Source of the DNA: Deuterostichococcus epilithicus
Lineage: Eukaryota > Chlorophyta > Trebouxiophyceae > Prasiolales > Stichococcaceae
DNA: 64,000 bases
Direction: 5' to 3'
Assembly (NCBI GenBank): GCA_033439295.1
Contig: JAVTLE010000010.1
Location: 1,674,001 to 1,738,000 of the forward strand
How positions within the stretch are numbered: position 1 is the first letter of the stretch; each line of letters begins with the position of its first letter. The notes beneath the pieces were generated by a model. It ran no database searches. It was not told the origin of the DNA and saw only the letters and a program-made list of their open reading frames with translations. Positions 652 through 57,500 of this stretch are shown in pieces. The translations under genes were made by a program, and so were the position numbers.

Positions 652-2590
652 CTAAAAAACTGAGAGGTGGAGCTTGAAGTCCCACTCGACACGTGCCTTC
701 TCCAGGGCGGCTGCGTCGGCTGCGGCTGGCTCGCTGCCGCGCCGCGCCACAAGCAGCCGCCCGACCTTCTGAACTGTTGCGGGCTTCAGCCCGAAGGCCG
801 CCTCCAGGAAATACGCCGCCGCCGCCAGCCGCTGCCCCAGCTGCGGGATGGCTGTCGAGAGGTCGATCGAGGTTTTGAACTCAGCAACGTCCACGTACAC
901 GTCTGAGCTGCCTGACTGTATGTCGACCTGGCCACGGCAGTCGAACTGCAGCTGCTCCGCTGGCAGCCGTAAGTCACTGATGCTGGCCATCGCGTAATTG
1001 GAGGCAAGGTAGAACCCCGGGCGGGCTGCCGCGTTGAGGCACATGATGCCAGCGCCCTCCGGGCGCATCAGCTCCCGCGCCTGCCGAGGAGGCAGAGTGA
1101 CGGTGAGTCCGCGGTAACAAGTGGTCTGAGCGAATCTCGAGATGAGGCGGCGGCGGGTAGTTGATGCATCTGAACCAGTCAACACACATGAGGGGAAAAT
1201 CACAGTGCAAGCAAAGTCCTCCGGCGCCATGCGCATCATTGCACACCTTCTCCTCGTCAGAGGCGCACGCCTGCACCTGCAGCAGACATGCCAGGCTCGA
1301 GTTGATGCATCTGAACCAGTCAACACACATGAGGGGAAAATCACAGTGTAAGCAAAGTCCTCCGGCGCCATGCGCATCATTGCACACCTTCTCCTCGTCA
1401 GAGGCGCACGCCTGCACCTGCAGCAGACGTGCCAGGCTCGTCCGCACCGCCTTGTCATCGCAGGAGCCGATGAAGGCGCCCAGCGCGGCTGGCTGGCACT
1501 CGTCGTCCACAAACCAGGGCTGCGTCAGCAGTCCGTTGCTCTGCAGCACCTCTTGGAAGGCGCGGAGTAGTCGGGCAGAGATGTTGTCCTGCACGAGTGC
1601 CTTCACCACGTAAAACACATCAGCCGGACTAACAATATTCGAACTAGGCTCCAATCTCCAATTGCTCAAGCCCTGCAGTGACATCTCGTGTCAGCACACT
1701 GCCAGGGGGACTGCATACATCAGACTCGGCAGACGGATAGCAGCAGGACTCGGGCAGTGCACAGCAAGCGCCGCTTAGTACGTGGTGAGTTGAATTCAGG
1801 TTGGACCTGGCAAACGCGCAAGACGATGGCGAGGCCTTCCTCCAGCGGCGCCCGCCGCCGGATGTCCGACTGCAGAGCGGCATTGGGGATGAGGCGGATC
1901 ATGTCCTGCAGGGACACTGCCAGCAGCGGCTCCACATATGTGTCGCCAAACTGCCGGGCGGCTTTGCGCCGCACGCGGTCCTCTTCTTGCGCCACACTGC
2001 TGCACCACGACCGCCAGCTGCGAATGCGAACGCGACACACACATGGTGTCAAATAAGCATACGTGGCTCGCACATTCATTGCCGAGACAAGTCGCAGGTC
2101 ACAGGCCAAGGTCCCAAAGCAACCTCACATGACACATCGTTAACGTCCCAGACTCAACATGCCCAGGCCCGCCTGCTTGTTGGTCGCAGTGACCTGCTTG
2201 TTGGTCGAAGTGACCTGCTTGTTGGTCGCAGTGACCTGCTTGTTGGTCGCAGTGACCTGCTTGTTGGTCGCAGTGACCTGCTTGTTGGTCGCAGTGATCT
2301 GCTCGCGTAGGTCCTCAAACCCACGCCTCACCTCCTGCGTCAGCTGCTGCAACCGGAACCCAACTCCCCTGCATCCAGAGTGAACGAAAAAGCATTACGC
2401 GTCAGTGGTGTGTTTCAGCGTGGCACATCGCTCTGGCTCAGCCAGTGCAGCGATCAAACAGGATCTAGCTGCACACAGACACACTGATTCCACCTGGAAG
2501 CCCCAAGACAACTTTGCATTCATACCCGGTCGCAGGCCGCCGCGCTTGCGCGCGTGTCCGCACGCTGGGCCGCTGAGCGTATCTTTGCGC
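652..2590 (-). CDS. Heptad-repeat protein with possible PD-(D/E)XK-like C-terminal domain
   Basis: Unrecognised minus-strand multi-exon gene. Exons I can support, 5' to 3': about 2530-2590 (ends at a GTATGA donor), 2172-2368 (starts GVGFRLQQLTQEVRRGF, then six TNKQVTA-like heptads), about 1811-2024 (VAQEEDRVRRKAARQFGD), about 1441-1676 (ends ...ACASDEEK before GT), and 652-1107 (acceptor CTCCTCGGCAG). The heptads suggest a helical or coiled-coil segment. The last exon contains VDIQSGSSDVYVDVAEFKTS, whose D-(spacer)-E-x-K pattern on predicted strands resembles the core of PD-(D/E)XK nucleases. It is followed by a long helix and the C-terminus FKLHLSVF. The nuclease idea is inference from one motif. 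The start codon was not located. A 141-base tandem duplication copies the end of the fourth exon. Confidence 0.45.
1159..1440. repeat. 141-bp tandem duplication spanning an exon 3' end and its splice donor
   Basis: Two head-to-tail copies, 1159-1299 and 1300-1440, differ at only two positions that I can find (near 1209/1350 and 1288/1429). On the minus strand the unit holds the last codons of an exon (LLQVQACASDEEK), its GTGTGC donor and the following intron bases. The duplication therefore offers two equivalent donors. The unit length is a multiple of three. Confidence 0.9.
2172..2297 (-). repeat. Six 21-bp repeats encoding the heptad TNKQVTA
   Basis: Six units of 21 bases (plus-strand form ctgcttgttggtcgcagtgac) run without interruption, with one or two base changes. 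On the minus strand each encodes a T-N-K-Q-V-T-A type heptad, with an S in one copy. Each unit also contains CAG|GTCACT, a potential splice donor. Confidence 0.9.
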
Positions 2591-3144
2591 TCTGCAGGGG
2601 GTACTGGCAGCCGCTAGCCGCAACATCAGCGACGTGAGCTGTCGAGCTGAGTGAGGTACTGGAAATGCTGACACTACGATGGGAATGCGGGCCTCCGAGT
2701 CCCTCGCAAAGCCTTGTCACAAATGGCTCAAGTATTCGAGGAGTTCCAATGACTGCAAGCCTCAATAAGAAGCATGTTGTCGAGAACGCCGCACGGAGTG
2801 ACGGAGATGAGGCGAGGGCAAAACCCTGACCATACTCGTACACGTACGCCGTAGCCTGACCCGTCAGCAATGCAAATGCTTGCTCCGACAGCATTTGTCC
2901 ATGTGTGGCACAATCACGCTTCCGGAGACAATCCGGACGCGAGCCGGAGGAAAGCCTCCTTGTGGAATCCTTGTGGAGGGACACCGGGCCGCGGCTCTGC
3001 AGATGTTTGAAATATTTCAGTTATCTTTGTGACTGGCCTTAAGCACGCCTGTGCATGTCGCAGCTGATTGCACTACTGCAGTGAGCATTGTGTTGCAGCT
3101 TGAGATTTTCTGGGCTGTAATGCTTGGAGGAAAGGACAGTGCTC

Positions 3145-6100
3145 ATGGCACAGCTGGATGACAGTTCAGACGCCTCAGGCCAGAACAAGCGCACCCTGCG
3201 CGCCCGGCAGCCCGTGACATACAAGAACAACGTGAGTGCTACTGCTGGATTGCTCGAGTCCAGGGCAGCTGATGACAGATTCACCCCAAGCGCATGCGGC
3301 AGAGGCGCCATTACCACTGACCCCATCCGACACCTGCACAAGCGCCGCTGCTCATCCCGGTGCCGCAGTCCGACTACGTTGACCTTGGCGACTCGGATGA
3401 GGAGCTGCGCGCCGAGAAGCGGGCGCGCCTGGACAACCCGGCGCCCAGCGATGCGACATTGGACGCAGAAACCGCCTGGGCGCTCGGCTTCACGCCAACG
3501 ACAGTGACAACCGAGGAGGAGGATCTGCTGCCCGCCGACGGCGACGAGGGCGTGTACACCAGGGTGGGACATGTTGATGCTTTGCTCCAAGAAACTGCCG
3601 GATAAGCTGAAGTGCCATGTTCTAACAGTTGCAGTCGACCGGTTGGTTTGAGATGTTCGATCTAATAGAATGCAGCTGAAGCTGTGTTGCACGGCATGAT
3701 GTGACGTTCGTTGTGGTACGGGTGTCTCCACATTGTGCCAAAGCCGATGCTGCTTTCGCAGGTGCGCAACCATGTGCTGACGAAGTGGCGGGAGGATGTC
3801 TCCAGGTGAACCGCTCGCTCCTGTGGTAAATTTGCGCACAGTCGGTGACAATGAGATTCGATGCGGTGTGCTGATGCGCATCTTCACCCTCCCCACTGCA
3901 GGTGGCTGTCGGAGGCGGAGGCGGCCGCCGGCATCTGGCACCGCCACCACGCGTATGTCACGGTAGCATGGCACTTCCTGAACGACTCCGGGTACATCAA
4001 TTTTGGCGTGGCGCCGGACATCACCGCCAAAGTGATGGCCAGGCCCGCCAAGCGCGGCGCGGTGGTCATTGTAGGCGCTGGCATGGCAGGTGAGCCGTGC
4101 TGAAAAGTACAGGCACACGCTGCCGTGCTTTGCCAAGTTCCTGTGACGCTGATGTCCAGGACGCTTGTAAGATTGGCATCTCGGACGATGGAGCATGCGC
4201 ACTGTGCTGGTGTTCACCCTGGTCTCATCATGTAACCTCGCACAGGGCTGGCTGCTGCGCGGCAGCTGCGCGCCTTCGGGCACCCGGTCATCATCCTGGA
4301 GGGCAATGCGCGTCCGGGCGGTCGCGTGTACACCAAGCGCCTCGAGGTAGGCTTTTCACTCTCGGTGTCAGCGCTTTCAGGCTTCGGGCCGGCGGGAGTT
4401 GCTGTCCAGAATGCGGCAGGAGGCCACGCAAGTACGAGCTCTCTCAAGTACCCGGTTGCAACGGCCGTTTCTGCATGTGCTGAGCGCCGCCCGCCATTCC
4501 ATGGGGCCTCCTTCTCTGCGCGTCGGGGCGGCTGCGCGGTGGCCTTTGTGACGGCGCGAGCGCGGCGGCGGACGTGGGGGGCAGCACCGTGACGGCCATC
4601 ATCCTGACGGGCACGCCCCACAGGATATGACAGCTCTCCTGTGGGCTCTCAGGGCGGCGGCTCGAGCGCGGTGGCAGACTTGGGCGGCAGCATCCTGACG
4701 GGCATCGACGGCAACCCGCTGGCGGTGCTCGCGCGGCAGTTGCGCATCCCGCTGCACGCCATCAACTCGGAGGGGGTGCCCCTGTACTGCTCCAACGGCA
4801 AGGAGGCCAACCGGCGCCTCGACCAGCAGGTGCTCGGTGCCCCCGGGTCGCTCCTCGCGCCGGGGACCATACGAAGCAGGATTCTGCGCACCGTGGCAGC
4901 CTGTCGTCTTGTCCCGCTGCCTTTTCACTCTTTACAGGTGTGCAGGCCCTCCACGTGTCTTCTCTGGCATCTTCAGGCCGCGCGGTGGCTCTCAGGATAC
5001 AGAGCCAGCGCACCACGAAGAGGCTGCGCCGCCCTGTGAGCAATGCCGTGGGGACGCCCTGTCGGCACTGCCTCCCAGGCCGCAGCGCGTGAGCAGATGT
5101 AGCCGGAGGCATCACGCGATTCAAACAGCGAGTCAGCCCCTGCAGAAGCGAACGAGGGCAATTCAGTGCTGCCGCCCGAACCGCACAGGTGGAGCAGATG
5201 TACAACAAGCTGCTGGACGAGTCGGACCGCTTCCGGGAGGACATGGGCGACATCACTGACAACGTGTCGCTCGCCACCGCGCTGGAGGCCGCCTGGGAAG
5301 AGCTGCCCACGCGATCAGGTGCCTTTTTGGGAGATGAAATCCACGCAATGGCAGATGAGGCAGCAGGCCGGCGGTCGCGGGGCGTACGCAGCCCCCTGCT
5401 CGGCGGCCAACGACTGCACGGGCACTGCTTCTGCACCCGGACCGGATGGGAAGCGCATGCGCACCTGAGCGGGCATGCGGCATCATGCGACCTCCTCATA
5501 GCCTGCAACTGCACACCTACACCAACGTTGCCCGTGCCTGCTGCAGGGCAGCCGGAGGAGCGGCAGCTGCTGGACTGGCACATGGCCAACCTGGAGTTTG
5601 CCAACGCGCAGCTGCTGCGTCGGCTGTCCATGCGCAGCTGGGACCAGGACGACCCGCACGAGGTGCCCGGCATCCATGCCTTCCTGCCGGGTGCGCCGCA
5701 GGAGTTTGCAGGAATGTATCCCTTAGCCTCCTTGAATTGCGGTCTTGGTCAGGGCATTGACGACGAATAAAAGAAGGGCTGCCCATCACCCATACCGTGT
5801 TGCCGGGTGCGCCGGCGCCGCATCTCCGGGTGAGATGCTGAGCATTCCACATAGGAGGCATCACTTCGGCAGAGGTTTTAAAAGGACCCTCACGAGGTGC
5901 CCGGCACCCAAACCTTCCTGCCAGGTGCGACACAGCTGCCTCTGCCTTGGTGAAACGCTGCCTCGGCAGGGTGCTGGCGACCCTCAAGAGCCACCCGGCA
6001 CCCACCCCTTCCTGCCCGGTGCGACGCGGCCGCCTCTGCTTGCCAAACCTGCTGACCGGCTTCACTCCCAGGGCTGCGCTTCGCGCAGACTCCCAACAGG

Positions 6101-9100
6101 TGGCTCAAGAGGCGCCGAATGCGCCTGCCAGCGTGGGGCAGTTGAAGCCATCAAAGTGACTCAGCTACTCTGCAGCAGGTCATATACCCCCAGGGGCACC
6201 TGTCGGCCGTGGCCAGCACTCTGGTGCGTCACGACGGCTTGACCCTCGACAGTGACAAACGCAGGCGGCAACATCCGGCTGGTGGAGGCTCTGGCAAAGG
6301 GCATCCCCATCTTCTACAACCATGTGGTGTCGGGCATCGACTACTCCGAGGCAGGCGTCACCGTGCACACTGCACAGCAGTCGTTCACAGGTGCTGTTCG
6401 TGTTTGTTGTCCTTGTGACCATTTGCATGCAAAAGGCTACTGCTGGTGCGTGTCACAGAAGCAGGCTGGGAGCTGCAGCGAGACAGCCCCTGCTGCGCAA
6501 CCCCAGCCTCCAGTCACAGGAAGCGTCGGCAAGACAGCTTGCCGGCAGCTTGATGAACGAGTCCAGGTCCGGATGGTCATATCAGCCCGCGCCATCCTGA
6601 CCACGAGGGGGGTTGCGACTGCAGCGGAGGCGGCGCTGGTGACGGTGCCGCTGGGGGTGCTGAAGAAGGGCTGCATCAGCTTCCAGCCGCCGCTGCCGCA
6701 GCGCAAGCAGGAAGCCATTGCCCGCATGGGCTTCGGCATCCTCAACAAGGTGGGTGCTTCCTGTGTGGTGCACACTCAAATCCAGAACGCCCCAGGGGCG
6801 CCCTCATGTGCTGTTCCCGTCCTGAGGCAGGGAGCCAGTGCTGTGGCCCGTGACTTCACGTGAATCTCATTCTCTCTGTGCATCCCGAACGTCCATCCTC
6901 TTCCGTCTCGATTCCGTGGCAGGTCATCCTGCTGTTCCCGCGGGAGTTCTGGCCGAAGGACGCCGACATGTTTGGCCGCGTGGCCGAGACCACCGCCGAG
7001 CGCGGCGAGTTCTTCCTCTTCTACTCCTACGCCGACCTGGCAGGTACTTGTCAGTTGTATTCACAGTTGTATTCCTGATTTTACACGAATCTCCTGCGCT
7101 TTACAAACTCCTGCTTCATTGCTCATGGGAGGCAGCCCAGCCTGCTGCTCCACGCCTGTGGCGGAGTCCAGCTACACGAAGCGACATGCGTGGTGCCAGC
7201 ATCTCCCACTCAACACGCCAAGCACTGGGCAGCTCACGACTGCTCCGAACCACATTGCGTCACATGCGCATCAGCGCATGCGGGACGTAACGTCAGGTCG
7301 TGCACTGCGAGCACGTGCTCATGCCCAAGCTTCCGTGCCCCTGCCAGGTGGCTCCAGCTGACATCTGCCGCCCCAAACCCTGACCAAACAATTGGACCTG
7401 CTTGAGCCAGGCGGCCCGCTGCTGGCGGCGCTGGTGTCAGGCGATGCGGCGGTGGAATTCGAGAAGCAGACCCCGGACGCCATTGTGGCGCGGGTGCTGG
7501 CCGTTCTGGAGCGCATCTTCACCCCGCGCGGCGTCCGTGTACCTCAGCCGCTGCAGGTGCGTGCGCCTGGTTCCGCATGCTGGGGACGCGGGGTCTGGAT
7601 CTCGCCCGCAGCATGTCCCTGCCCATGTCATCTTGGTGTGAACCTGCGTCACGCTGTCACTGCCCGCCCTTGCGCTTGTCTCACTCACAAGGCTCTGCAC
7701 ATCTGGCAGAGCCTTGTGAGAGGACGCACACGAGGGCAGGCAGAGACAGCGCGCACGCCGCCGCGCTCAGAGCGTCAGCTGGCTTGCCATGTCAGCGGGT
7801 GCCCAAAGTGCATCGAGCACCCGGTCCCGAAGCCTCCGGCAAGGTGCAAGCAACTGCCAGTGCGCAGGCTGTGTGCACGCGGTGTGTGGCGGTGACCCGA
7901 CGGCCCGGTGGCAGCTGTGCCCGCTTGCGCATGGGCACCTCGGAAACCGCTCAGAGAGAGGGCGCCTGAAAAGGGAGTGCCTCCAATTGCAGGCGGTGTG
8001 CACGCGTTGGGGCTCCGACCCGATGGCGTACGGCAGCTACTCCAGCCTGTGCGTGGGCAGCGCCGGCGGCGAGGACTATGACGCGGTCGCGGACTCCGTG
8101 GGCAGCCGCCTGTACTTCGCCGGCGAGGCGACCACCAAAAAGTACCCCGCCACGATGCATGGCGCCTTCTCCACCGGCCTGCGTGAGGCGCGCGCTTCTC
8201 AATGACTTCCGGATCCTGAGCCTGCCACGACCACAAGGCTGCTGGCTGCATGCCTCTGAGAGCTCAACACCCTGGTGTGCCTCCAGTGCCTGGGTGTCAC
8301 GCTGCATTGATGTCTGGAGTTCACGTGTCTGCCCGCTGTGAGACCCGCCTAGTCACCGCGCCCCTGTGTCGTCCTGGCTCTGTCACAGCGTCTGCAGCCA
8401 CGACGAGCCATGTCTGCCCTTGTGTCAAAACAGGTACTGTGCAAGAAGTACTCACAGAAGTCTCGTCCGCGGCAGCTCAGCCGCTGCGGCATGCGCTGCT
8501 GGGACTGTGCCGACTGTCGTGGACCGTGTGCTGCAGGCCGCCAACATCAAAGCGACGCTGTCGAGGCGGGCGGCGGAGGCGGCGCTGCTGCGCAAGCGGC
8601 TGGACGCGCCCGCCACGCCCTCCCTGCCGGAGGCCAAGCCTCACACCGCGCAGCAGGCACGTGGCCAGAGGCTGATTGAACGCCCGGGGTCGCACCTCCA
8701 TTCATGGGGCAGACATCAGGCTCTGCAAACCCTACCATTTGGTTTTGGCCAAACGTGCGCTGTGGCTGCGCGGCGTCGTGATTGGTCTGAGAGTCGCATG
8801 GAGTCGGATCATTTGCCAGCTGCATTGAATGTGTCTCAAATGTGCAGTGTGCACGGCTGGACAGCAGTTCAGTGTGCACTGGTTGCGGCAAGAAGGGGGC
8901 CGAGCGCGGTCAGGCGTTTGGGAGACAAGCTTGTTGTCGGACCCCATGTTCGCAGAACCTGCAAGCACGGGACGGACTTCCCAGGTCGAACATCGAGCTC
9001 CGAAACCATCAGCGGAAGCATCACTGTCTGGAGTCCGAACCTCGCAGGAGGCGCGGGAGGCGGCGTCACGGCGCGCCGCCTCCAAAATCGGACATGGTTC

Positions 9101-10682
9101 CCGAAACGATCAGCGGAAGCATCTGTGTCCTCAAACATTGCAGGAGGCGCGGGAGGCGGCGTCACGGCGCGCCGCCGTCCAGCGCGCTGCGGAGCTGGAG
9201 GCGCTGCTGGACGCGGCCTTTGGCGACCCCGGGCGCCCGCCGGACCTGGAGTTCGGCTGCTTCGCCGCGGTGCTGGGCCCGGCGGGCAGCGGCTTCGAGG
9301 GCGAGGCGCTGCTGCGCATCGACACAGGTGCATGACACATCGCCTGTTTTGCTGCGGTCACAGCGCCAGCTTTGAGTGTAGGCGCTGCCCGTGGCGGCCG
9401 TGCTGTGGTTGCAGACAGCCTCGAGCGGGCTTGCCGACGGCTGCGAGTGTCGGAAACGCCTCCGGAAGCACCTAAGGAAGCCCCTTCCTAGAACCGAAGT
9501 GCCCATGCCCCCGCAGGCGATGCACGCGGCGGCTCCCGGCGGCACCTGCCCATGTTCGTGCAGCTCACGGCGCACCAGGCCACCATGTGCGCCTCAGCTT
9601 TGCTTCATCTGAAATCCGCAGTGCCGCTCAGCCGCGGCATAAGCTTTCGATATCTCGCACACTGACATGCAAGGGATGCATGGCTGGAAGGTCTTGAGCT
9701 CCAGCATGCAAGCTGCGTCACACCAGGCATGCGTCGCGGCTGTGATGGGGCTGCAAGACGGGCCTCAAAACATCTCGAGCCGCCCGCCGTGAAGTGATCC
9801 TGGATGCCCAACGGCAGGCTGCGGGACATGCGGGGCGGCGACGACGCGCGCATCGACGCGATGACGGGGCCAATGGGTGTGAAACTGGTGGGGCGGCCGC
9901 CGCTGCCGCCCCGGGCGGCGGACCTTCTGAAGGCGGTGCTCATCGCCCGTGGCACGCCGCTGCCTGTGCCGCAGTCGGCGCCGGCACCGCCGGCCGCCGC
10001 TGCACAGCAGCTGCCGGCAGCGTCCGATCAGGGGCCACCTTCAGCGGCGCGGCTCGGCCATGCTGTAGCACCGCAACTCGGCCAGCCTGCAGCGGCGCCA
10101 CAGGTGCCGCCCAGGGGGCCTCAGCCAGTGGCGGCAGCGGCGCAACCTGCCGCGTCTGCATGGCTGCCCCTGCGGCCACCTGCAGAGGTGCCACAGGTGC
10201 AGCCACAACTGCCAGATGTCGCCGCTGCCTGGCCGGCCGCGCAGGCGGCTGCGCAGGCGCTGCACCACGCGCCTGCGCCTGGAGCATGGGTGCCTGGTGG
10301 CGTTGCAAATGGCCCTGCGGCCACTGGTAGCACGGCGGCACCCACTGCCAGCAGCCAGCCGGCCCTGAGGCTGCCAGCGGCGATGCATCCGGATGCCATT
10401 GCGGCATGGCTATCGGCGCAGATCGCCGCTCGGTCAACGCCCGCACCGGCCGGCAGCGCGTGGAATGGAAGTGCGGCAGAGGCAAGCGTTTCGGTGCCGC
10501 TGCAGGCACAGCAGCCGGCGCAGCAGCCGGCGCAGCCAGCGCAGCCGGGCTCTTTTGCTGCGTTGATGACGATGCCGCTGGAGGAAGCACTCTCCCCTCC
10601 ACCCAGCAACACCAGGCAGCCGGGTGCGGGGGCAGCGCAGCATGCTGCAGCGGACGACAGCTTCAGCAACCCCGGTCTCTAG
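3145..10682 (+). CDS. LSD1/LDL-type lysine-specific histone demethylase
   Basis: FAD-dependent amine oxidase that would remove methyl groups from histone H3 lysine in the nucleus. Exons: 3145-3231, 3369-3563, 3762-3805, 3902-4089, 4246-4346, 4653-4829, 5189-5318, 5547-5690, 6265-6390, 6625-6749, 6923-7043, 7411-7556, 7993 to about 8190, then less certain exons near 8540-8660, 9144-9327, 9517 to about 9600, and about 9800-10682. Phases join cleanly through residue 528. An acidic N-terminus precedes a SWIRM domain ([19 protein letters not shown], then [18 protein letters not shown]). Next come the FAD motif [38 protein letters not shown], and MGFGILNK with the lysine matching human K661. The domain ends at [36 protein letters not shown] and GEFFLFYSY resemble plant LDL proteins, and I see no animal-type tower insertion. 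The tail has [12 protein letters not shown]...GVKLVGR and then a long Ala/Pro/Gln-rich stretch. The junction after about 8190 is unresolved. Confidence 0.9.
5656..6035 (+). repeat. Decayed copies of a demethylase exon 3' edge inside the next intron
   Basis: The end of the exon at 5547-5690 ([11 protein letters not shown] and its GTGCG donor) recurs in the following intron. Copies lie at about 5793-5830 (partial), 5891-5933 (reads [11 protein letters not shown]) and 5991-6035 (reads PGTHPFLPG). Each is followed by GTGCG, so each retains a donor-like site. Confidence 0.75.
9001..9180 (+). repeat. Duplicated splice acceptor and exon start in the demethylase gene
   Basis: The acceptor plus exon start [11 protein letters not shown] occurs twice, at 9041-9085 and 9137-9181. 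Each copy is preceded by a matching intron stretch (cgaaac.atcagcggaagcatc at 9001 and 9102). The exon-like parts are near identical. The second copy continues into the longer open exon, so the first is the likely extra copy. Confidence 0.8.
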
Positions 10683-11413: not shown

Positions 11414-14400
11414 ATGAAGGTGAAGGCCATCAACCGCAGCGAGGAGGCATGCACGCGCGAGCGGTCGCAAGACCTGCGCAAGGTGAGGAGCCACAAATTC
11501 GTGGCTGTTTCATTTTCTTGCTGGAATTGACCGCTCTGCTGTGTTTCAATCACAGCGCAGCAGACCATCCAGCATTAACGCCCCCTCGTCGGTGGCATGA
11601 CTGAAGCTGCTTTGCTGGGGGCTGCTGAGTCTCCAAGCATTCTGGTGATGCAAGGTGCACCGCAATCTGGACCCGGCGCTGCACCCGCACGAGAAGGCCA
11701 TCGAGTACACCCGGGCGCTGAATGCCGCAAAGCTGCAGCGCGTCTTTGCCAAGCCCTTCCTTGGGGCGCTGCCGCACGATGACGGCGTCACGGCGCTGGC
11801 GCGCAATCCCGCGCAGCTCAACAGCCTGGTGTCCGGCACAGCGGACGGCACCGTGCGACTGTGGGATGTCGCGGCGCAGCGCTGCCTGCGGCGGCTAGAA
11901 GGTGGGCGTCTGAAGCGGGCGTCGCAGACCATATTGCACCACAATGCCCTGTGGTGCAAAATGTCATGGCAGCTCACTGTCTTCTGAGCCTAAGCCTCAC
12001 ACAGCTTGGTGCTGCAAGCAAGCGAAAGCGCGGCCAGCAGAATCATCACCATTAACACGGATCCGGCTTGGATTGGCGCGCATGCCACACAAGGGCGCTA
12101 AAGGGCATCGCAGTCGCGCCTGGCGGCCTGAGATTTAGTGAGTCCAATTCGCAGGGCACACGGCGGCTGTCAAGGGTGTCGCCATCGCGCCCGGCGGCGA
12201 GACGGCGGTCTCCTGTTCTACAGACGCCACAGTGCGGCTGTGGAAGCTGCCGTATGCGCCCTTCCATGCGGGCAGCGTGGAGGAGACGGATCAGGCGGTG
12301 CTGCAGTTTCAGGGCGCGCACGGCTTCAGGTGGGTGGCGCTTCCGCCGCTCTGTGGGGGCATCCTTATGGGCGTCCCCTGGAACAAAGCAAACGCACATG
12401 CGGGCACTCGATGTCATCTGCGGCCGCATGGTGAGCCGGCCCTGACTAGTCAATCGCCGCCGTGCGAGGCTCCAGAGCTCGCTGGCATGTCTGCTGAGAT
12501 CGATCTGAAGGACGGCACACAACATCGCCTGTGCTCCTCACGCGGTGCCAATGGGCATGATCAGCCGCTGGAAGCTCGGGGAACACTGTGCGCCACCCAT
12601 CGCATGCGGCACTGACACTTCTGATCTAGCTGCAGCGAAATATTTACGGCCCACACACCATGCAAAGCTGCGGATGATGAGAAAACTGAAGATATCCGTT
12701 GTCTGAGGGGATCAGATGCTGGCTCCTGTGCGGACAACATTCTGAGCTCCAACTGACGCAGCACCCAACCTGCGACCTGCCTGACGAACGATATCGTTTG
12801 CCTGCCTCTCTTTTCCGCTCTACTGGAATCACGGCTGCCTGATCGCTGCGGGTGATGAGAAAACTGAAGATATCCGTTGTCTGAGGGAATCAGATGCTGG
12901 CTCCTGTGCGGACAACATTCTGAGCTCCAACTGACGCAGCACCCAACCAGCGACCTGCCTGACGAACGATATCGTTTGCCTGCCTCCCTTTTCCGCTCTA
13001 CTGGAATCATGGCTGCCTGATCGCTGCGGGTGATGGGAAAACTGAAGATATTCGTTGTCTGAGGGGATCAGATGCTGGCTCCTGTGCGGACAACATTCTG
13101 AGCTCCAACTTACGCAGCAATCAATTGGCCCAGCCACCCTGCAGGGGCCCTATTCGCAAAGGGCCACCCTCATGCGCCTGTGCTTCTTGCAGGGCAGCCT
13201 GCCGTCGACTGCCCGCCGCACACACGGTTGCTCATGCAGCCGTCTCTGACACCGCAGGGGCATCGACCACCACTGGCGGGACGATGTGTTTGCTACTGCC
13301 GGCGCCAAGGTGGATGTGTGGAGCCATGAGCGCTCGGAGCCGGTCAGCACCTTCACGTGGGGAGCTGACACCATCCACTCTGTGCGCTTCAACCCGGTGA
13401 GCGGTCCGCTGCAATGGCTCCACGACATGTCGCGTGCTGTGGCCCCGACTCACTCCTGACCCTCGGCAGCGCTCGAGAGCTTGCGGTCGCCACGCCTGGC
13501 GGCGCGTCCTGCTCCACCACTTGGGCAGGATAGCACCGCAGGCGGTCCGACTCGCATAGTCATCAACATGTCCGAGTGAAGCACCGTCGCTGGACGCACA
13601 CCGCGCCGTCGCTGGCTCACAGGCGGAGGCGGACATCCTGGCGACCACGGGCAGCGACCGCTCCATCGCGCTGTACGACCTGCGCTCCGGCAAGGCCATC
13701 CGCAAGCTCATCATGCAGACGCGCACAAACTCCGTGGCGTGGAACCCCATGGAGGCCTTCAACTTCGTGGCGGCCTCGGAGGACTGCAACCTGTACTCCT
13801 ACGACATGCGCAAGCTGGGCGCCGCGACCTGTGTGCACCAGGTGTGCGCTGCAGCAGAAGCCTGTCAGAACCCATTGTGTCCGATGGCGCCTCTCTTCAA
13901 TTGCGGCCTCCGCATGCTGCGCTGGCATTCCTCCTCTCTCAGGCACCCTGCCCATAGTCTTCCAGGCAGCCAAAAGTGCAAAGTCCCAATCGTATCCCGC
14001 ATTCTGAGGCCGCTCGTTTGCCGCCGCCCGCAGGATTTTGTGTCGGCGGTCATGGACGTGGACTTTTCGCCGACGGGGCGCGAGTTTGCCGCCGGCTCCT
14101 ACGACCGTTCCCTGCGCATCTTCTCCCATGCCGGCGGCCACAGCCGAGAGGTGTACCACACCAAGCGCATGCAGCGCGTATTCGCCGTACGCTTCTCCGG
14201 CGATGCCAGCTACGTGTTCTCCGGCAGCGACGACATGAACGTCCGCATCTGGAAGGTGCGATGCCGCGCCCGGGGCGGTGCTGGAATCTGCCTGAGAGAA
14301 TTCCGGCCCCTCAGTGCGGCGGGAGGGGCGCGGCAGTCTCCCGGCAGCGCAGTGCGCAACTGTCTGCGTGCCGGGCTCAGAGTATCGTTCCGGTGTGGCC

Positions 14401-40433: not shown

Positions 40434-43094
40434 TGGCGACAGTGGCAGCGGCGGATGCAGCCTTGTCGCCCAGCCCGCAGGAGGAATGGGTGCCAGGCAT
40501 GTAGCTCGGGGCTTGCAAGCATGTTGATTACTTCCGGGTCGGGCAAAGCAATAATTGCAGCTAAACTCAAAACTGCATGGAAGCTGCGCTTGCCGGCGCT
40601 ACCGGGGATGTTGCGGACCTGCCACAACAATGTGAGGTGCATCGGATCAGACAATAAAGTCTGACGGCGTCAGGCAATGCAGTGTCTTCTATCAGCCCCG
40701 GAGGTGCCGCTGGCGGGCGCACAGCTGGTGGGGCGTCGCATCGGCGTGCTGTGGCCTGAGCACTTCGCCTTCATCCGGGGGCGCATCACCGCCTACTCCC
40801 CCGAGGTGCGTCTCCATTGCAGCAGCAATCTGGCTGCATCTGCATCCAGCCAGCTTCCCAACCTGCGTCATGGCATTGCCTCCATGGCTGCGTCCGCGGT
40901 GGGCTGATGAGCTGATGTGAGGAGCATATGCCCATGTGCATCCCTCTTGCCGCCTGCATCGGCGGCGGCAGCTACGAAGACGACCAACACACAATGCAAC
41001 TGTCCTCAGGATCTTAGTGCTCGTGCAACGGCTGGGCATAAATGGCCTCACCTGCAGTAAAGGCTGCATGCGATGGAGCACGAGGTCGGCGACACTTACG
41101 GTGTTTTGAATTAAAAACCTTGAGAGATATAACTCCCGTCCGACGATAAAGTGGAGGTCACCACAGCATGGGCTGCACGCGGTGGAGTACGAGGACGGAG
41201 ACTCCGAGGTGCTCCACCTGGAGCGGGAGGAGTGGCAGCTGCTCATGGGTGGCGCGGCGGATCACGCCGGCGGCGACCCGGCATCGGCCCAAGCGGCAAC
41301 AGCAGTGCAGGTGCCTCTGCCTAATGACCGATCGGTTTTAGCAGCTGTGCATTATTGCTGCAAATTCTCTCCTTGGTCGGACATCAGTGATCGTTCGTGC
41401 AACTTTAGAGTGAGCGCTTTTGCAATGTGCAGGTGGTCTTTGATGTGCGTGGCGGCGTGGCCTAAGGCCCTACCTTGGGTTGAACACGAAATAGTGGCAA
41501 GCATGTGACTGCGCAGGGGATGGAGCAGACCACAAGCCGTGAACATGTGATGGAGCCGTATCTAAAGGTATTTCCGAACAGAATCTGCCCTGTTACATGC
41601 CTTCTTCTCAAAGGTGCACACATCAGCCACAGCCGCATGGGCCATCACAGCAGGCGTCGACTGACAGCTTTGACTGCGATGGGTTCTGATGCCGATCCCT
41701 CAGCACGAAGTCGCGTCGTTCAATGCTTGCTCGTCCCTGGCTCGGCAGACCTCAATCTCACCAGCCCTCACGGCCAGAAGACCTCCAAATCACACCGCTG
41801 CTTCATCTGCAGCCACCTCTGCCTTATTAGCGAATGCCTACATTAGCAAGTGCCTGCACAAGCAAAAGAGAGAGCGGTTGTGCACACCGTCCTGCAAGGG
41901 CGTCGTTCCTTGGGCAGGGTCGAGCAGCAGTGTCCAGGCCGCCTCCGCTTGCTATCACAGCACGACTGCTTTGGTGCAGGCCGCCGCCGAGGACAGCATC
42001 GTGAAGACGCGGCAGAAGGTGGCGTCACTGCGCAAGACCCTCCAGGTGAGACATGCCGCGTCAGGACACACGTCACGATGTCACGCAGCATACTACGCTC
42101 TTACGGCCCTCCAGTTGCCCGCAGCAACCACGCCGTCACCTGCCGGTGTGCCTTGCAACCATATCAAGCCGAGCACAGGTTTGTTGGCGCAGCAACAAGA
42201 AATTGCTCCTTCAGATCCTGTGTCTGCTGCCAACTTGCAGGATATGGAACACCGGTACAGCGCTAAAATCTCTAGCCTGGAGGACCGGCTTCGCAAGCTG
42301 CAGCAGGTGACGGCATTGTGGCAGCGTCTCCAGCACGGCTCCGATTGGCACTGCACATAGATATCCGCAGCGCTGGTTTGAGCAACGACCACGGGCTGGA
42401 AATTTGCACAAGTCTGGTCTGCATGTGCCAATCTCATCTGTATTACTCCAGCCATGTGGAGTAGTGCATATTCGCCACGATGAAACAGCTGCGCAGCAAC
42501 AACTGCAAATTCGCAGTGTACGCGAAAGATGGCAGGCGGAACATGGCAGGCGGAACGTCAGCCATTCTCGGAGCAGCTACCCTAGCCTCGGGTGCTCTCC
42601 CACACACATGACGGTGCAACGTCTTCAAATGACGCGTTGCCGATTCGCTCAAGAGGTATAGCTGCTATCTGCAGGTGGTGGCGCAGCGGCAGGAGGCGCT
42701 TGGCACCTCCAACGCCTCGGCCACGGCTTTCCGGCACGCCTTTGACGACCTGCTGCAGTCGCTCGCCTGGCCAACACCCAACGACGGCCCAGGCGGCAGC
42801 AACGGCGGCGGCGGAGGCGGCGGCGCCTCTGTGGGGCAGCTGCGCCTGCCGATCCTGTCAATGGCGATGGCGCCGGCGGCTGCAGCGGCGGCAATGGCAA
42901 TGTCGGCGCCCATAACGTCGGCGGCGGAGCCTGCTGCCGAAGCGGCTCTCCATGCGCCCAGAGACGCGACCAGTATCAGCGCCAGCGACAGCGCAGCCTG
43001 CGGGCCTGGCAGCGACTGCGGCGGTGCTCAGGCCTGCAGTGCCCAAGCCAGTCGGCAACTGGCCGCAAAAACCAGCCGGCGGGCAGCCATGTGA
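38428..43094 (+). CDS. ARID and Tudor-like domain chromatin protein
   Basis: Predicted nuclear DNA- and chromatin-binding protein. Supported exons: 38428-38768, part of 39010-39130, 39177-39239, about 39409-39530, 39637-39700, 39841-39969, 40154-40489, 40704-40805, 41167-41310, 41980-42045, 42241-42306, 42675-43094. A Gln/Ala/Ser-rich N-terminus precedes an ARID fold assembled over four exons: QVFLDQLSGFFAARGERPP, KEPVNLHTLFNLVQQNGGFD, VMLNKKWASIG, SDQLSTAIKKLYQKYLLDFD. A glycine-rich linker (GGC run near 40405-40433) leads to a Tudor/PDS5-type barrel: GRRIGVLWPEHFAFIRGRIT and HAVEYEDGDSEVLHLEREEW. Two coiled-coil exons follow (TRQKVASLRKTLQ, EHRYSAKISSLEDRLRKLQQ), then a Gly/Ala/Ser-rich tail. 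The junction between the third and fourth ARID exons is not resolved. One undetermined base sits at 40371. Confidence 0.8.
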
Positions 43095-44729: not shown

Positions 44730-44769
<40 letters not shown>

Positions 44770-48576: not shown

Positions 48577-51531
48577 CTAGAGCATGGAGCGGCCAGATTG
48601 GCTTGCAGACAGCCTGCCATCTGGTCCGATGACCAGGCTGCGTGTGACATGCTTCAGGCTTGGGCACCCCGTCAGGACCTGCAGTGCGGCAGGAGCCACT
48701 CAGGTGTTTGGCGCATGCAGTGCCAGCAGAGGCAGTCCAGTTGGAACTGCAATTATGCCGAGGACTACACATCAGCAGAAGACGTCCAGTAATGGCAGCT
48801 CACCATGGCTAGCTCCAGCTCGTCGTGCAGGGCTTTCAGCACCGCCTCCACGCCGCGCTGGCCGCCAAGAGTCAGGCCCCACAGCACCGGCCGCCCCAGT
48901 AGTACGGCGTCTGCCCCCAGCGCCAGCGCCTGCGAATCAGAATCTAGGATGTCGGGGCGCTCAACAATGCCAGGTCGATGTGCACCAGAGCGATGGCCTT
49001 CGCTGCCACCCGTCTACTACTACACAAGGCTGCTGGCCAGCATGGCAGTGCTTCTGTCTCAACAGCAGGGCAGCAAGCAAACTGGAGGAAAGCACACCTT
49101 GAGCACATCGGTGCCGCGGCGCATGCCGCCGTCCACGATGATGGGCACCCGGTGCCCTATGGCATCCACCACGTGCGGCAGCATCTCCACAGCTGAGGGC
49201 GCAAAGTCGCACTGCCGACCGCCGTGGTTGCTGCGGGCGCCACAACAGGCGCTGTTATGCATGCTTCGGAACTCTGGCAATGCAGGCTGCCAGCCTGTGA
49301 GGCCATTCCATGTTGCATCAGTCCTGATTACTCGGTCAGGATTCAGAATTTGGAACTCGTGTTACTGCGGAGTACCTGAGGATGATGCCGTCCACGCCGG
49401 CTTGCACTGCGAGCTGGGCGTCTGCGGGCGCCAGGATGCCCTGCAGCAGCAGAAACAGCGACGATTGTCTGGCGCAGGACCCGCTTCGGCTTGTGACAGA
49501 GGATGCGACGCTAGTTCAGCGCACTCCTAACCATTTCAGAGGTTGCAAATGTCGGGCAGGCGGCACATGCACGCCGTCAGCCTACCTTGACGAAGATGGG
49601 AAGGTGGGTGACGGTGCGCAGCCACTGCACAAACTCCCATGTAAGCGACGCGTCCAGGTGCTTTGCAAACACCTGGAATGGGCATGAGTGACGTCAGATG
49701 CGGACCATTTCAGATCCTGCTATCATGCCGCAGCAGTGTTCCTGATGCACAACACACATCCCTGACCAGCACTGCAACAGGCCGGGTCTGCCGCTGCGTG
49801 TCCACCTCAAAAGCACCTGTGCGATACCAGAGCCCTCTGCCTCACGGTTCTCGCTGTGCACGGCCAGCTTGAGATTCGACTGCTCCAGGTTGGCAAGCCG
49901 CAGTCCGACCGGCAGTGCGAACCTGGCGCAAGCAACCAAAAACCGCTGTCACAACCCATCGCTCATTGGACCGACCGCAATGAGGCATGCTGCCAACTGC
50001 TTGAAAATGCCCAATTCCACGCTCAGGCTCTTTGTGCAATCGCACCGATTGGTGACGTCCTCCTCCCGCTTTCCCAGCCTGCGCTGCACACAGAGGCTTG
50101 TCGAAACTGACGCCCCCGACATGCAGCGGCACAACAGCAGGTTCCATGGTGGCCACTTGCTTAAGTCGTCTACCGACCTTGGCGCATCGACCGTCACCAC
50201 CAGCGCTCCATAGCCAGCGTTCTCCGCCCTCTGCCAGGCAGCGCAAGCCGCGATCAGGCGCCCTGCAGCCTCGTTCAGCTCCAAAACACCATGCAGCGCT
50301 GCCTTCTTCCGGAAGTCATGCACCTTCTGCCATCCTTATCTGCACCGCTGCTACGAGGCTGCGGCTTGGAAGCAGCTCACCTGCACGATGTCGCGGGTGA
50401 AGCCCCGGTCCCGAAGCACATACAGCTGAAACATGAGGGTGCCTGGGTCCGCGCTGGCTGCCGCAACCGCCTCGAGCGTGCACGTGCCCATCGTGGACAC
50501 ACCCTGAGCAGCAACACCGCTGAACATGCAGATCTGTGGTAGCCAGACCAGCTTGCGGTGCGCCCAGCTGCGGCCGTCATGAGGCTGCTGCAAGTTCGCC
50601 CATGTGAGCAGAAGGCACAATCCGAAACGGCACCGCTTGAGGGTGGTTGCGCGCGACTGCTGTTCGTTCAGTGCTGCGCTGCAGAGATGGGGGTTGACAA
50701 CCTTGTACGATATCTCTCGGGTTCACGACCCGTGTTGCAGCAGGAAAGAGCGTGCCATCCTGCGGCCGGCAACAGAGCAGGCGCACGAGACGAAGCCAAC
50801 GTGACTTTTGTAATGTGGTCGTTCGTGGCAGCAGGAGGGAGGCGCACCATGCTGGTGCCCGCAACGGAGCAGGCGCGCGAGACGGCGAGCTCGCCGTCAG
50901 GGTGGGCCATGCACTGCATTGCCATTGGTGCCACCAGGATGGGCGTGCGCAGCCGCTTGCCTGCGCATCACGGACTCGGCAAGTTCGAAGAGGCCTTCAG
51001 TTGCTTGCGTGCATGCCACGCCACATCCCGGCTTGGACTGGCTGCCCGCCCCACACCTCATGCGATGACACGCAGGCAGCCAGCTACCCCGTGTCCACTC
51101 CACGAGTGCTCGCAAGGGAGGCTCGCTTCACCTCCTAGAGGCAAGAAACGGTGTGATTGCAAATTATGCCCACCGACGATGTCCAGCGACGTGTCGACTC
51201 GCGAGACGTCGACCATCATGCGAGGCAGCAGCCGCAGGCGCCCAAACACCGCACGGTTCTCCGCCAGTGTCGCCTCTGACTCGGCGCCGCTGCTGTAGTA
51301 GCCATATGCGTTGGCGCTGAGCTTGAGCTTCGCCTGTGCTAACCCAAAATCACCTATTCTGTTCATTGGCATTGCTTTCCAAGTATTTTGTGTGCATATA
51401 GCGAAGCAGCAGTCCACCTTGCCCTCCAGCTGCTCCAAATTTGCGAAGTTGAGCGACCCGGCCTGCCCAGGTTGGTCCTGCTGCCGCGGCCGCGAGGGCC
51501 GCATTGGCTGGGCGGTCTGCTCCGCCCCCAT
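48577..51531 (-). CDS. Peroxisomal FMN-dependent (S)-2-hydroxy-acid oxidase
   Basis: Glycolate/lactate oxidase family enzyme that oxidises 2-hydroxy acids to 2-oxo acids with H2O2 formation. Exons: 51418-51531, 51174-51333, 50848-50960, 50381-50503, 50178-50230, 50046-50078, 49817-49922, 49586-49672, 49376-49440, 49098-49230, 48804-48929, 48577-48678. The sum is 1215 bases, 404 residues. Active-site elements are intact: [13 protein letters not shown] (Tyr24 of spinach GLO), FQLYVLRDR (Tyr129), LPIFVKGIL (Lys230), LSNHGGRQ (His254 and Arg257) and [28 protein letters not shown] for FMN phosphate. The Trp108 position is Met ([11 protein letters not shown]), so substrate preference may differ from plant glycolate oxidase, for example lactate. 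The C-terminus is Ser-Met-Leu, an accepted minor plant peroxisomal signal. The N-terminus has a Gln/Pro/Arg-rich extension of about 25 residues. Confidence 0.95.
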
Positions 51532-52017
51532 CGGGCTAAGCTGCTAAATTGAGGCTCTGAAGTTGTAGGCTGGAGACTGAGATAGGCGCGCTTCGGAGCA
51601 GGGCTGCCACCAGAGGGTGCACTAGCATCGACCGTGCGCGGGGCGCTCAGGTCGCCTGTGGAGCAGTGACTTGATGATTGCTGGTCTGGAGGGTTTACTG
51701 AGGAGGACAGGCGACCTGCAGTCACTTTGCGCTCTGAGAAACAACGAAATCGACACGCTGGCCAACGGTATGCATGCAGGAAGCCAGTCTTGCGGGATCG
51801 GCAAGTGAAGCTTTCGGAGGGCTGATGGAGGATCAGAAACCAGTACAGATAGTGTCGAGAAGCGGTCTGCAACCTGCTAATGGCAAACTGAGCAAGTGCA
51901 CCTCGAGATCAGCTTCTTCTTTCTTCACCTCAGAAAACATTGCGTAGGAGAGATTGCAGCATCTGTTGCACTTTCGCGCAACATCTGCATGTACAGGGTG
52001 CTTTGCAGCTCGCCAAG
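51532..52017. promoter_or_regulatory. Divergent promoter region, hydroxy-acid oxidase and PsbP-like genes
   Basis: Less than 500 bases separate two divergent start regions of genes tied to photosynthesis (photorespiratory-type oxidase and a thylakoid protein). Shared light regulation is possible, but I see no defined element. Confidence 0.35.
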
Positions 52018-53996: not shown

Positions 53997-54587
53997 AGGA
54001 CATACTGCATGGTTTTGACAGTATTTCAGGGCTGAATTTAAGCAGCAGTTCTGCCTCTAGAGAATCAATACCACTACGAATCACATATGACGACTCAGCT
54101 GACAGTTGTAGGTGTTCGCAAACACTTCGACCAAAACCGGTGCGCACTTGAGCACTAGGGTGGCACGAGACGATGACTGTACAGAGCACCAAGGAGATAC
54201 GCAGCGCGCCAATGAGACGACGCTGATGGCTGGGACATCCCAACACACAAATTCAGATAGACCTTGCGCGGATATCGTGAAGTGCACCAGCCCCACCCCC
54301 AAACTTGCTACCTATCAGGCGAGCACGCCTCACGTTCCTTGTTCTAGATTTCTGCAAACAGCGCATCCAGCCGCCAGCGCCGCCCAACACATGCTATTTC
54401 AGTACTTTGCACCGCTCCTGAGGTTCTACTGCCAGCTGACGTGGGCTGCATCACCGAAGGTGCACGATCCCCTTGTCAGCGGTCGCTGTGGAAGAAGATC
54501 CTGACATCTCTAAAGCCGCATCAGCGGCCGGCCCATTGCGCTGTGGCTCGCTGCTGCCAGCTGCCCAGTGGCGCCCCGTGCACAACT
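53997..54587. other. Convergent intergenic region, PsbP-like and kinase genes
   Basis: Both neighbouring genes end here. I see no exon, RNA gene or repeat. It looks richer in A and T than the flanking exons, as expected for 3' untranslated DNA. Confidence 0.45.
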
Positions 54588-57500
54588 TCACAGCCTGACG
54601 CCGCCGCCGGCAAGACAGCCGCAGCAGCCGGGCCCGCGCTCGCTTTTGGCAGCCTTCACGGCACGCATGTCCGCCTCGTCCCACCGCTTGGCGACGCCAG
54701 AGTCCCGCATCGCACGCAGCCGCTTGGCGACCTGCGGGTTTGCCAGCAGGCAGCGTCTCACGCTGGACGCGCGCGCACCAGGCGCTTCCAGCCTCGTGCC
54801 TGGCCGGCTGCAACGTCCTGGCCATCCTTGTGCACTGCCTGTGCTGTCGTGCCGGGCGGTGCCACGATGTGTCCAACATGCACAGTGCTAGGCTCCCAAG
54901 GAAAAGGGGTGGGGGGGACTCTGAGGAGGTAGGGCACCTTTGCGGCGGAGGGGCGGGACAGGGGGTTGGACGCCCAGCAGTCGGCGATGAGGGCGCGGAC
55001 CTCGGGCGGCCAGTCGTCCGGCAGCGGCTGCCTGAAGCCGCCAGCCACCCGCTCGGCGTACTGAAACACCCGGTCCACCATGTCTGCACGCGCAAGTACT
55101 CGGGTGACATGCGCATCGCCATACTGTGCTGCTTGGGTCCATGGGGCTGGCAGTCGACAAGACATGCGGTGAGCAGTCGGCATCTGCTGCAGGCAGCAGA
55201 CAGAGGCTGTCCCGCAGCGCGGTGCCGGGGTCGCGGCGACGCTTGTCACGGCTGTGTTGTGACCGGGTGGACGCGCTGGTCGATGCGGGCCGCCACACGC
55301 ACCCTCGCCGGAGACGATGGCGATGGTGGGCGTGTAGCTGAGCAACTCCCACATGACGACGCCCAACGAGAAGACGTCCACCTTCTCGTTATAAAATGTG
55401 CCGCGCAGCACCTGCGGGCAAAGGAGACTGGCGTCATCGTTCCCTGATGTAGACCACAGCGCACTCCAGAATCCCGCTGTGTGGGGCCTACCACATGTAT
55501 GCTCGGATTGTTTTCAGGGTTCATCCGGTGCACCCCAGAGCTGGTGCACCCCAGATGTGCTGCCGTGCAGCAGGTTGACGCCGCATCATTCAAGATAAGG
55601 TTCCCTCTTGGAGGTCACTCCCGATGGCACCTGTTGATTGCCAGTGTGCACAGGCGGACGTGTTCAGACCCATTCTGAAATTAATGTCATTGCGGGAGGG
55701 GGCAGGAGGCGGTGACTCGCCTCGGGCGCCATGTAGCACAGGCTGCCGGTCTGGCCGGTCATGCGGTAGGCCATGTTGGCGCTGGCCAGGTGCACGCTGC
55801 CGTCGTAGGCGCTGCCCTCCGATGCCATGCCGCAGCTGACCTTTGCCAGGGACACCTGTGGGCCACAGAGCAGAGCTATCGATAGGTAAAAGGTTCGAGA
55901 GGCTCGCGCTGTCAGAGCTGCCCTCGAACGCGATGCCGCAGCGGACCTTTGCCAGGAACACTTGCGGCCATAGACAAAGGGCTCATAAGATGGGGGGTTC
56001 AGGGAAGCAGCGCTGCCCTCTTGACGCCATGCCACGACCGACATTCGCCAGCAACCCCTGCAGCAGCAGGTTGACTCAGCAACTGATGCAAGGGTCAAAC
56101 GGACGCCACGCCGCAGCTGACCTTGTCTAGCGAGATCTGCGGCCATGGAGCCAAGATTTTGGGATTAGCAGGTTCAGTTTGCAAGTTCAGGGAAGCAAGC
56201 GGCTATCAGAGCTGCCCTTGGGATGCCACGCCGCAGCCATGGCGGCGCGCGGTCCAGTATGGCTGAGCATGCCGTTGCATGAGCTCTGGAGCGTGACCTG
56301 CCAGATGCGAGATGAGATTGCGCGAGCGCCATCCACTGCAGGGCTTGCATCGAAAACTGGAGGACGATCACCCGCCCAGCAGTCGGGTTGATGTCCTCTG
56401 AACCCGCTGATTTGCTCGGCCGTCTGGATATGCTCCCGACATTCGACACACATCTACCATCAGTTCCTAGCCGAAACTCCAGTGTCTGTGTCCAGAGGAA
56501 GAACGCCGAACGCATGACGTCATTTGCATGAGGAAGTTCCGAGGAGCACCCTGCGCAGCTGCTGCATGAGGTGGGCGCGGCGGGTGCTGCTGGCACCGCT
56601 GTGCGCTGCGACCATCGGCGAGTCGTTGCCGCCGCTGCCGCAGCTGTCCACCGAGCTGCGCCGTGTGCTCCGGCGCCCAGCCACCTGGCACAGGACACAC
56701 AATGATCAGACAGGCGCTGGGAATAGGGGAGGATGGCAGGATGTGCTGTCGTACACATGGTGAAGCATGCAGGCCGGCAAGGTGGCAGATGTACAGTTGC
56801 TCTTCAGGAGGCAACAGGTTCCTGGTGGTCTCGGAATGAGGGGCGAGTTGCTTCGCGGGAAAAGGTCGACTGTTGCAGCCTGTTGCCTTGCGCCGGCGGG
56901 ACGTCACGCACCAGTGCGAGGAGTGCCTTCACGCTGCCGTGGGCGCTGGGGTTGTGGCTGGCCCTCGCGGTGGTGCCAGGGACACCTGACATGCCGCCGG
57001 CGCCAGAGTCGCCCGCAAGGCCGCTGCCGTCCCCGCCGCGGCTGACCCGCAGCTTGGCCGCCACCTCCGCATTCAGCGCCGCCTGCTGCACCGGCGCACT
57101 GCCGGCCCTGTCGCCATCCAGCTCCCGAGAGGCAGCCCTGCAAACATCCACTCAGGTTGCGGTCTTGGCGCTCAAAGCGGCTGCATGACTTGGAAGATGC
57201 AGCCTCGCAATTCGAATTTGCATCCTCTGTTGACGGTGCAGCTGACGGTGCCGCGAGTCGCTCTGCACGAGCACAGGAGTCCCCTGCTATGGCTGCTTCG
57301 GAATGTTGCCGGTTTTTCTCGGATGCTCTGTCCGGGCATGTAGGGAAGGTGGAAAGCTTGCAGGCCGCCCACCTGATGCCACGCAGGCGCTGGGCCACGC
57401 CGCTGCCGCGAGGTAGCGGCGGCAGCCGTGCAGCAGGGCCATCAACCTCGCCGCGGCCCAGGAACCCCATGGACTTGGTCGCGAGGCACGGCGGCCTGGG

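Follow-up and report, generated by a model that had tools for sequence, protein, structure and literature searches.

Exon edges repeated in the adjoining introns of the green alga Deuterostichococcus epilithicus and their possible origin in small tandem duplications

Background

Internal gene duplication that creates introns across eukaryotes is, to go by its title, reportedly the subject of a 2009 paper by Gao and Lynch. Two other papers concern intron gain by tandem duplication (PMC4974935, PMC2891723), and excerpts of a third describe how induced breaks with 3' overhangs of about 43-50 nucleotides (nt) gave tandem duplications in mouse and human cells, with fill-in by CST/Pol alpha-primase (PMC8355091). 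Here we examine a 64,000-nt stretch of the trebouxiophyte green alga Deuterostichococcus epilithicus (assembly GCA_033439295.1, contig JAVTLE010000010.1, positions 1,674,001 to 1,738,000 of the forward strand; hereafter, the window), in which exon edges, together with their splice sites, are repeated inside the adjoining introns of several unrelated genes. We favour, at a probability of roughly 0.57, an origin in recurrent small tandem duplications, of which those straddling a splice junction would be silent and would then decay neutrally.

Among the titles and abstract openings searched, which leave subscription papers mostly uncovered, none reports exon edges repeated in adjoining introns, and we make no claim that such repeats are unpublished. 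A Chlorella genome paper perhaps mentions exon-end repeats. Exon-edge repeats are not mentioned in passages of a Coccomyxa paper (PMC3446292).

Results

Exon-edge copies and their anatomy

A copy of the junction's own exon edge lies in the adjoining intron at 49 of 1114 predicted junctions (314 kb), 11 of the 260 in the window and 38 of the 854 outside it. The repetition of exon edges in introns is confirmed as real and is not confined to the window. The sequence-only reading from which this work started had named seven places in the window, and all of them hold repeats of the kind described, including that in DCAF13 at 12101, about which it had hesitated; the place at 35819 is the weakest. 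Copies at four further window junctions (4552, 7864, 41055 and 50750) were absent from its list.

The sample comprises the window and 25 further 10-kb stretches of the same genome (L003-L027), taken as a first set of the window plus 17 stretches (234 kb), then six stretches (L020-L025), then the last two. The genome spans 46.8 Mb in 21 contigs, is rich in introns and has the telomere repeat TTTAGGG; the window has a G+C content of about 62%. These features and a PsbP-like protein are in keeping with a green alga. Exons and introns were called ab initio by a self-trained hidden Markov model gene finder, trained on the first set, where it returned 51 genes, 481 exons and 430 introns with a median length of 240 nt; the eight later stretches were run without retraining. 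Ungapped local direct repeats no more than 900 nt apart were listed in all stretches; before counting, low-complexity repeats were dropped and predicted internal exons shorter than 36 nt were relabelled as intron. At a score of at least 16, the 234 kb contain 241 repeats, all kinds included and overlapping ones counted apart, against a mean of 4.0 per dinucleotide-shuffled set (five sets); at a score of at least 18, the figures are 177 and 0.4. With the low-complexity filter applied, the 241 repeats form 79 clusters.

Donor and acceptor edges are both affected, as had been claimed (20 and 29 of the 49, respectively). The copy lies 71-286 nt from its original in the first set, mostly 70-150 bp, and takes in 17-83 nt of exons that are mostly 100-230 nt long. 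The homologous block runs up to the junction. Similarity stops no more than 15 nt past it into the intron in 47 of 49 cases, and the end of the copy lies no further than 15 nt from the junction in 76%, compared with 28% under uniform placement. Across the first 40 exon nt the mean identity is about 0.67; by intron position +10 it has dropped to a background of 0.27.

The copies are under weak or absent coding constraint. Mismatch at the three codon positions is 0.185, 0.155 and 0.231, and of the codons changed in copies 195 are non-synonymous (226 expected) and 84 synonymous (61 expected), while stops number 2 where 6.9 were expected (P=0.04). The shift towards synonymous changes relative to expectation, and part of the stop deficit, would follow, at least in part, from synonymous drift of the exon partner itself. 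A reading of the copies as alternative or duplicated coding exons is disfavoured by the mismatch at the three codon positions and by the preponderance of non-synonymous changed codons. The splice dinucleotide (AG or GT) is retained in 25 of 37 copies, near the expectation at about 80% per-base identity, and 9 of 37 offsets are multiples of three, which is no excess. As regards the suggested decoy splice sites, neither selection for the copies nor their purging is apparent, the dinucleotides being kept at about the same rate as ordinary bases. At L015 7353-7460, the copy, compared by eye, lacks about 17 nt of the original, including the acceptor AG, so that an inner acceptor has perhaps been lost by a small deletion; two spacer tests found no significant spacer homology at this place.

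The rate is uneven: 44 of 822 junctions in the first set, 2 of 224 in L020-L025 and 3 of 68 in the last two stretches. Within this patchiness, L004 (7 of 32) and L015 (5 of 36) stand at one end, and L005, L006, L008, L009, L011, L021-L024 and L026, with no copies, at the other; copy-free stretches often, but not always, have shorter introns. Intron lengths, compared over 294 of the 314 kb, differ accordingly: the median is 462 nt with copies (44 introns) and 231 nt without (479 introns; p=4e-14). Copies occur in 38 of 163 introns of 300-2000 nt but in only 3 of 285 that are below 250 nt, in line with the proposed link with intron growth.

Evidence for tandem duplication

The copies are of graded ages reaching into the recent past, as had been noticed, and the youngest cases are head-to-tail. 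These are the pair at 1159 (141 bp, 99%), L015 9178-9469 (133 bp, 92%), which consists of two units and part of a third, the intronic array at 12667 (178 bp, 96%), and the pair 9000/9101 with its homologous spacer. Some older introns carry three to five copies, and those of the LSD1-like, kinase and SEC12-like genes are multi-unit. Spacers are alike within the kinase and LSD1-like arrays (p=0.005 each). Two of the LSD1-like copies have bases in common that the exon lacks, which indicates that copies gave rise to copies.

Homology of the spacers was examined in three ways, and each showed them to be more alike than controls. A first test gave a Wilcoxon p of 8e-5 (35 of 44 cases taken); a second took 46 of the 49 cases and placed 9 at p<0.05 versus 3 of 47 swapped controls, with a Fisher p of 2e-5; and an anchored test, with a shuffled null only, took 48 of the 49 and placed 17 of these below p=0.05 (Fisher 3e-10), the 17 including the 1159 pair, which was counted untested since its repeat covers the spacer. 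A head-to-tail unit equal in length to the offset and lying on both sides of the junction is seen in young cases and several arrays. Head-to-tail units, arrays, alike spacers and junction-bounded ends together favour tandem duplication straddling the junction, with the outer site retained. The sequence-only reading had listed tandem duplication as one candidate; the young units and arrays agree with it, and among the spacers at large homology is significant in only those 17 of 48.

Tandem or local repeats also occur outside predicted genes, at L020 8294-8860 (offsets, for example, of 72-76, 104 and 143-150) and at L025 2283-2841 (offsets 334 and 340).

Placement and visibility

Placement was tested on 87 repeat clusters with offsets of at least 60, compared with shuffled positions. 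Clusters that overlap a junction, with one copy coding, number 50 against 29.6 +/- 4.4 when shuffled, and those with both copies coding number 23 against 7.4. Wholly intronic clusters number 4 against 23.3, where the 4 refers to offsets of at least 60 and excludes five or more intronic pairs whose offsets are 27-59 (in L008, L009, L017, L023 and L027), junction copies all having offsets of at least 71. There are 4 intergenic clusters against 10.1, and six fall outside all these classes where 16.6 were expected.

The order of over-representation (both copies coding, then one, then none) is the one expected if constrained sequence stays visible for longer. Visibility can explain much of the junction clustering, and for most of it a junction-directed process need not be assumed. 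The earlier interpretation stands in part: junction overlap is in excess, and a residual over neutral decay (see Discussion) leaves some room for a process specific to junctions, but pairs with both copies coding are over-represented still more strongly. Young events in the list from the first set, judged by eye, include both junction and intronic cases and are too few to show targeting.

Loci in the window

The features of the window are collected in Table 1. The LSD1-like demethylase and DCAF13/SOF1 products align with solved structures, and homology backs the exon joins 5690/6265 and 7556/7993 in the former and 11901/12155 in the latter; the gene finder fused these two genes into a single model. 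Junction 4653 is only loosely covered by the LSD1 alignment, and junctions 1388, 9144, 17204, 36120, 41167, 50848 and 55856 have the gene model as their only basis. The names SDR, SEC12-like, kinase and PsbP-like are putative assignments based on the predicted protein sequences. A Pfam search with one 48-amino-acid exon returned no match.

Table 1. Repeats at exon edges and in introns of the window
Feature	Position	Strand	Details
Tandem duplication of 141 bp, 99%	1159..1440	-	Donor side; ab initio exon 1388-1588; unit made up of exon edge 1388-1440 and 88 nt of the intron; its copy spans 1159-1299 (exon-edge copy 1247-1299)
Copy 4552-4600 of acceptor-side exon edge 4658-4706	4552..4706	+	84% over 49 nt, offset 106; within intron 4347-4652, exon start 4653
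LSD1-like gene, exon edge 5651-5690 and three intronic copies	5651..6029	+	Donor 5691; copies 5767-5817, 5885-5935 and 5979-6029 within intron 5691-6264; four-copy array with spacings 116, 118 and 94; 63-86% identity to exon edge
Short copy 7864-7884 of acceptor edge 7989-8009	7864..8009	+	90% over 21 nt, offset 125; weak score of 17; downstream exon starts 7993
Acceptor-side tandem duplication, copy 9000-9080, original 9101-9176	9000..9176	+	Exon start 9144; 9000/9101 90%, 9038/9134 95%; spacer homologous as well
DCAF13/SOF1 gene, copy 12079-12127 of acceptor edge 12150-12198	12079..12198	+	73% over 49 nt, offset 71, score 20; exon start 12155; exon join homology-backed
Wholly intronic 178-bp tandem array	12667..13119	+	2.5 copies, 96%; junction spared
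SDR gene, copy 17125-17149 of acceptor edge 17202-17226	17125..17226	+	96% over 25 nt; exon start 17204; spacer homology looked for, not found
SEC12-like WD gene, intron with two degenerate units, each about 150 nt long	35830..36191	-	Donor side; intron 35551-36119, exon 36120-36264; units 65% to each other over 142 aligned versus 47-48% to exon; best exon match 71% over 48 nt; weakest case
Copy 41055-41093 of acceptor edge 41164-41202	41055..41202	+	79% over 39 nt, offset 109; exon start 41167
Copy 50750-50792 of donor-side edge 50842-50884	50750..50884	-	81% over 43 nt, offset 92; exon 50848-50960
Kinase gene, acceptor-side exon edge 55811-55855 and intronic copies	55811..56149	-	Intron 55856-56549; copies 55917-55967, 56023-56063 and 56102-56142; four-copy array with spacings 106, 96 and 79; weak fifth copy near 56215

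In the gene at 1159-1588 on the minus strand, the length of the 141-bp unit is divisible by three, and one reading frame stays open from the exon across the intron part into the copy; under the ab initio model, splicing at the inner donor would lengthen the protein by 47 residues without a frameshift. By eye, the seam of the pair is without microhomology. In the predicted coding region of the same gene, a 21-bp repeat occurs about six times at 2172-2303 on the minus strand (97% matches) and encodes the seven-residue repeat TNKQVTA. The kinase gene has a CTG run of about 22 units at 58276-58341 (minus strand), encoding a long glutamine tract.

The gene finder called inner copies exons at window 1247-1276 and at L015 9178-9469, the latter being for this reason outside the 49. 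Exon-edge repeats can thus yield false exons in ab initio annotation, as in at least these two places.

Discussion

The history that we propose begins with small tandem duplications, mostly of 70-150 bp, which would recur in genes, with some arrays reaching three to five copies, and which may be born by end-joining of staggered breaks or nicks or by replication slippage. Where the unit straddles a junction, splicing would stay with the outer, original site, as we infer for most genes, and the inner unit, which comprises part of an exon edge with its splice site and a piece of the intron, would turn into intron. The intron would become longer by about one unit and the protein would be unaltered. 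Thereafter the inner copy would decay under little coding constraint, its exon half remaining recognisable the longest, as its partner is conserved coding sequence, and its intron half being lost sooner, as both partners drift. Older events would therefore resemble copies of exon edges that stop at the splice site, because the intron half decays faster.

Several results weigh against neutral decay as a complete account of these duplications. In our simulations, random tandem duplications were placed on real introns, the copies decayed neutrally and the same detection was applied; they assume exon rates and spectra of insertions and deletions (indels), and their results shift with these settings. 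At constant rates, the ratio of intron-only to junction pairs was 0.94-1.13, compared with the 4 to 49 seen; similarity reached more than 15 nt into the intron in 40-58% of cases, compared with 2 of 49; and spacer homology was significant in 66-83%, compared with 17 of 48. Simulated decay left an identity of 0.36-0.53 at intron positions +10 to +19, and the observed profile falls more steeply. A fit with ages skewed to the old gave 19.1 intron-only pairs at 0.12 indels per substitution and 5.3 at 0.3. Raising indels to 0.6, with a mean of 10 nt, brought spacer homology down to 33-66% by identity class, compared with 23-55% seen, but very frequent large indels are disfavoured because array spacings are regular (Table 1). 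Similarity between intronic copies leans to exon-derived sequence, by 9 to 3 at scores of at least 16 and by 9 to 8 at scores of at least 14, on few data, and spacer homology was not found in several pairs of at least 89% identity (L027 3845, window 17204 and L015 7460). Four predictions made before L020-L025 were examined fared unevenly in those stretches. The predicted rate failed, since copies were expected at about 5% of junctions and occurred at 2 of 224, and there was no clear majority of junction copies over intronic pairs (2 versus 2, one of the intronic pairs having an offset of 27). As regards shape, the exon reaches of 46 and 33 nt fitted, and one of the two copies ended within 15 nt of the junction.

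At birth, the simulated placements gave about two junction-straddling units for each intronic one. A simulation that required about 45 nt of intron in the unit had 10-15% of copies reaching more than 65 nt into the exon, and without this rule 31-34% did so, where 3 of 49 were seen; the short exon reach may thus reflect a need, which we infer, for the unit to keep about 45 nt of intron. The junction bias exceeds what simple neutral decay would give, and the footprint is also sharper than expected under it. It is conceivable, though doubtful, that splice junctions themselves direct how some 50 nt of exon edge and splice site are copied or protected, and that introns grow by copies of their own borders. 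A part of that account, that the own-border block outlasts other intron sequence by a factor beyond neutral decay, we hold just as tentatively. We know of no mechanism for copying or preservation tied to splice junctions.

Copies that arise in tandem and then, at exon edges, evolve several-fold more slowly than the rest of the intron, through gene conversion with the exon or through selection (for example, as backup or decoy signals), would account for some of this misfit, and we consider them unlikely. With copies set at 0.15 of the intron rate, the simulation gave spacer homology in 0.33 (0.35 seen), reach beyond 15 nt in 0.15 (0.04 seen) and an intron-only ratio of 0.25 (0.08 seen), nearer on these three measures than the three neutral settings tried; the lean of copy-to-copy similarity to exon-derived sequence and the deficit of stops point the same way. 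The same model over-predicts very similar copies, however, with 47% at an identity of at least 0.88 where 22% were seen, and slow evolution sits poorly with splice dinucleotides kept at about the ordinary-base rate and with frequent non-synonymous changes. Rather less probable still is a junction-linked copying, such as templated repair of breaks close to transcribed splice junctions, that takes a short segment of about 40-65 nt from the exon edge with its splice site, inserts it in the intron at a distance of some 40-110 nt and leaves the sequence between unduplicated. It would agree with the fall in identity at the junction, which is steeper than in simulated decay, with the many spacers (most of them) that lack detectable homology and with the scarcity of intron-only pairs, but the youngest cases are full tandem units and regularly spaced arrays with shared spacers are hard to produce by such insertion. 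Insertion from a random template is disfavoured as well, since it would not respect the junction at which homology stops.

Two further explanations carry little weight. The repeats could be footprints of intron birth by tandem duplication of an exonic AGGT, rather than of growth; the type of mutation is the same, and that model, as described in part of PMC3443670, likewise leaves exon-like sequence in introns. We regard it as very improbable, because it would place the copy of the upstream edge at the very 3' end of the intron and that of the downstream edge at its 5' end, whereas the copies lie 71-286 nt from their own junction in introns of median length 462 nt, and some reiterate. The geometry seen accordingly speaks, if weakly, against intron birth, the distance to the far intron end not being tabulated case by case. 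An artefact of assembly or gene prediction is scarcely credible. The gene models are ab initio, for a genome used here without annotation, and two young pairs (96-99%) could be assembly errors; copies at 70-90% identity, however, are not expected from misassembly, the LSD1-like and DCAF13 exon joins are backed by homology, and repeats exceed the shuffled sets by far (241 versus 4).

If plain tandem duplication followed by decay is the correct explanation, small tandem duplications at the borders of exons would be a visible way in which introns lengthen, with a trace in 38 of the 163 introns of 300-2000 nt, and the exon half, as a conserved anchor, lets borders mark events of intron growth that are otherwise invisible. 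Should the residual excess persist when a sister species is compared, a copying or preserving process linked to splice junctions would be indicated.

As regards known systems, the introner elements described in part of PMC9860276 resemble the present repeats in being repeated sequence in introns on a genome scale. They differ in that one element is present in many copies, whereas each of the present repeats was looked for, and detected, at its own junction alone. An introner family is rejected for these spacers, which have no excess similarity across genes (the swapped controls, 3 of 47 at p<0.05), no genome-wide family search having been made. Intron gain by tandem genomic duplication, in the portion of PMC3443670 available, shares with our proposal a local tandem duplication that is tolerated as splicing removes the extra sequence; there, a new intron arises within an exon, whereas here an existing intron is lengthened and its outer boundaries are kept. 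The end-joining of staggered breaks, as far as excerpts of PMC8355091 describe it, similarly produces head-to-tail duplications of tens of bp, and the 1159 seam is, by eye, without microhomology. Unlike in that system, only the historical product is seen here, with offsets mostly of 70-150 bp that straddle splice junctions, and in an alga.

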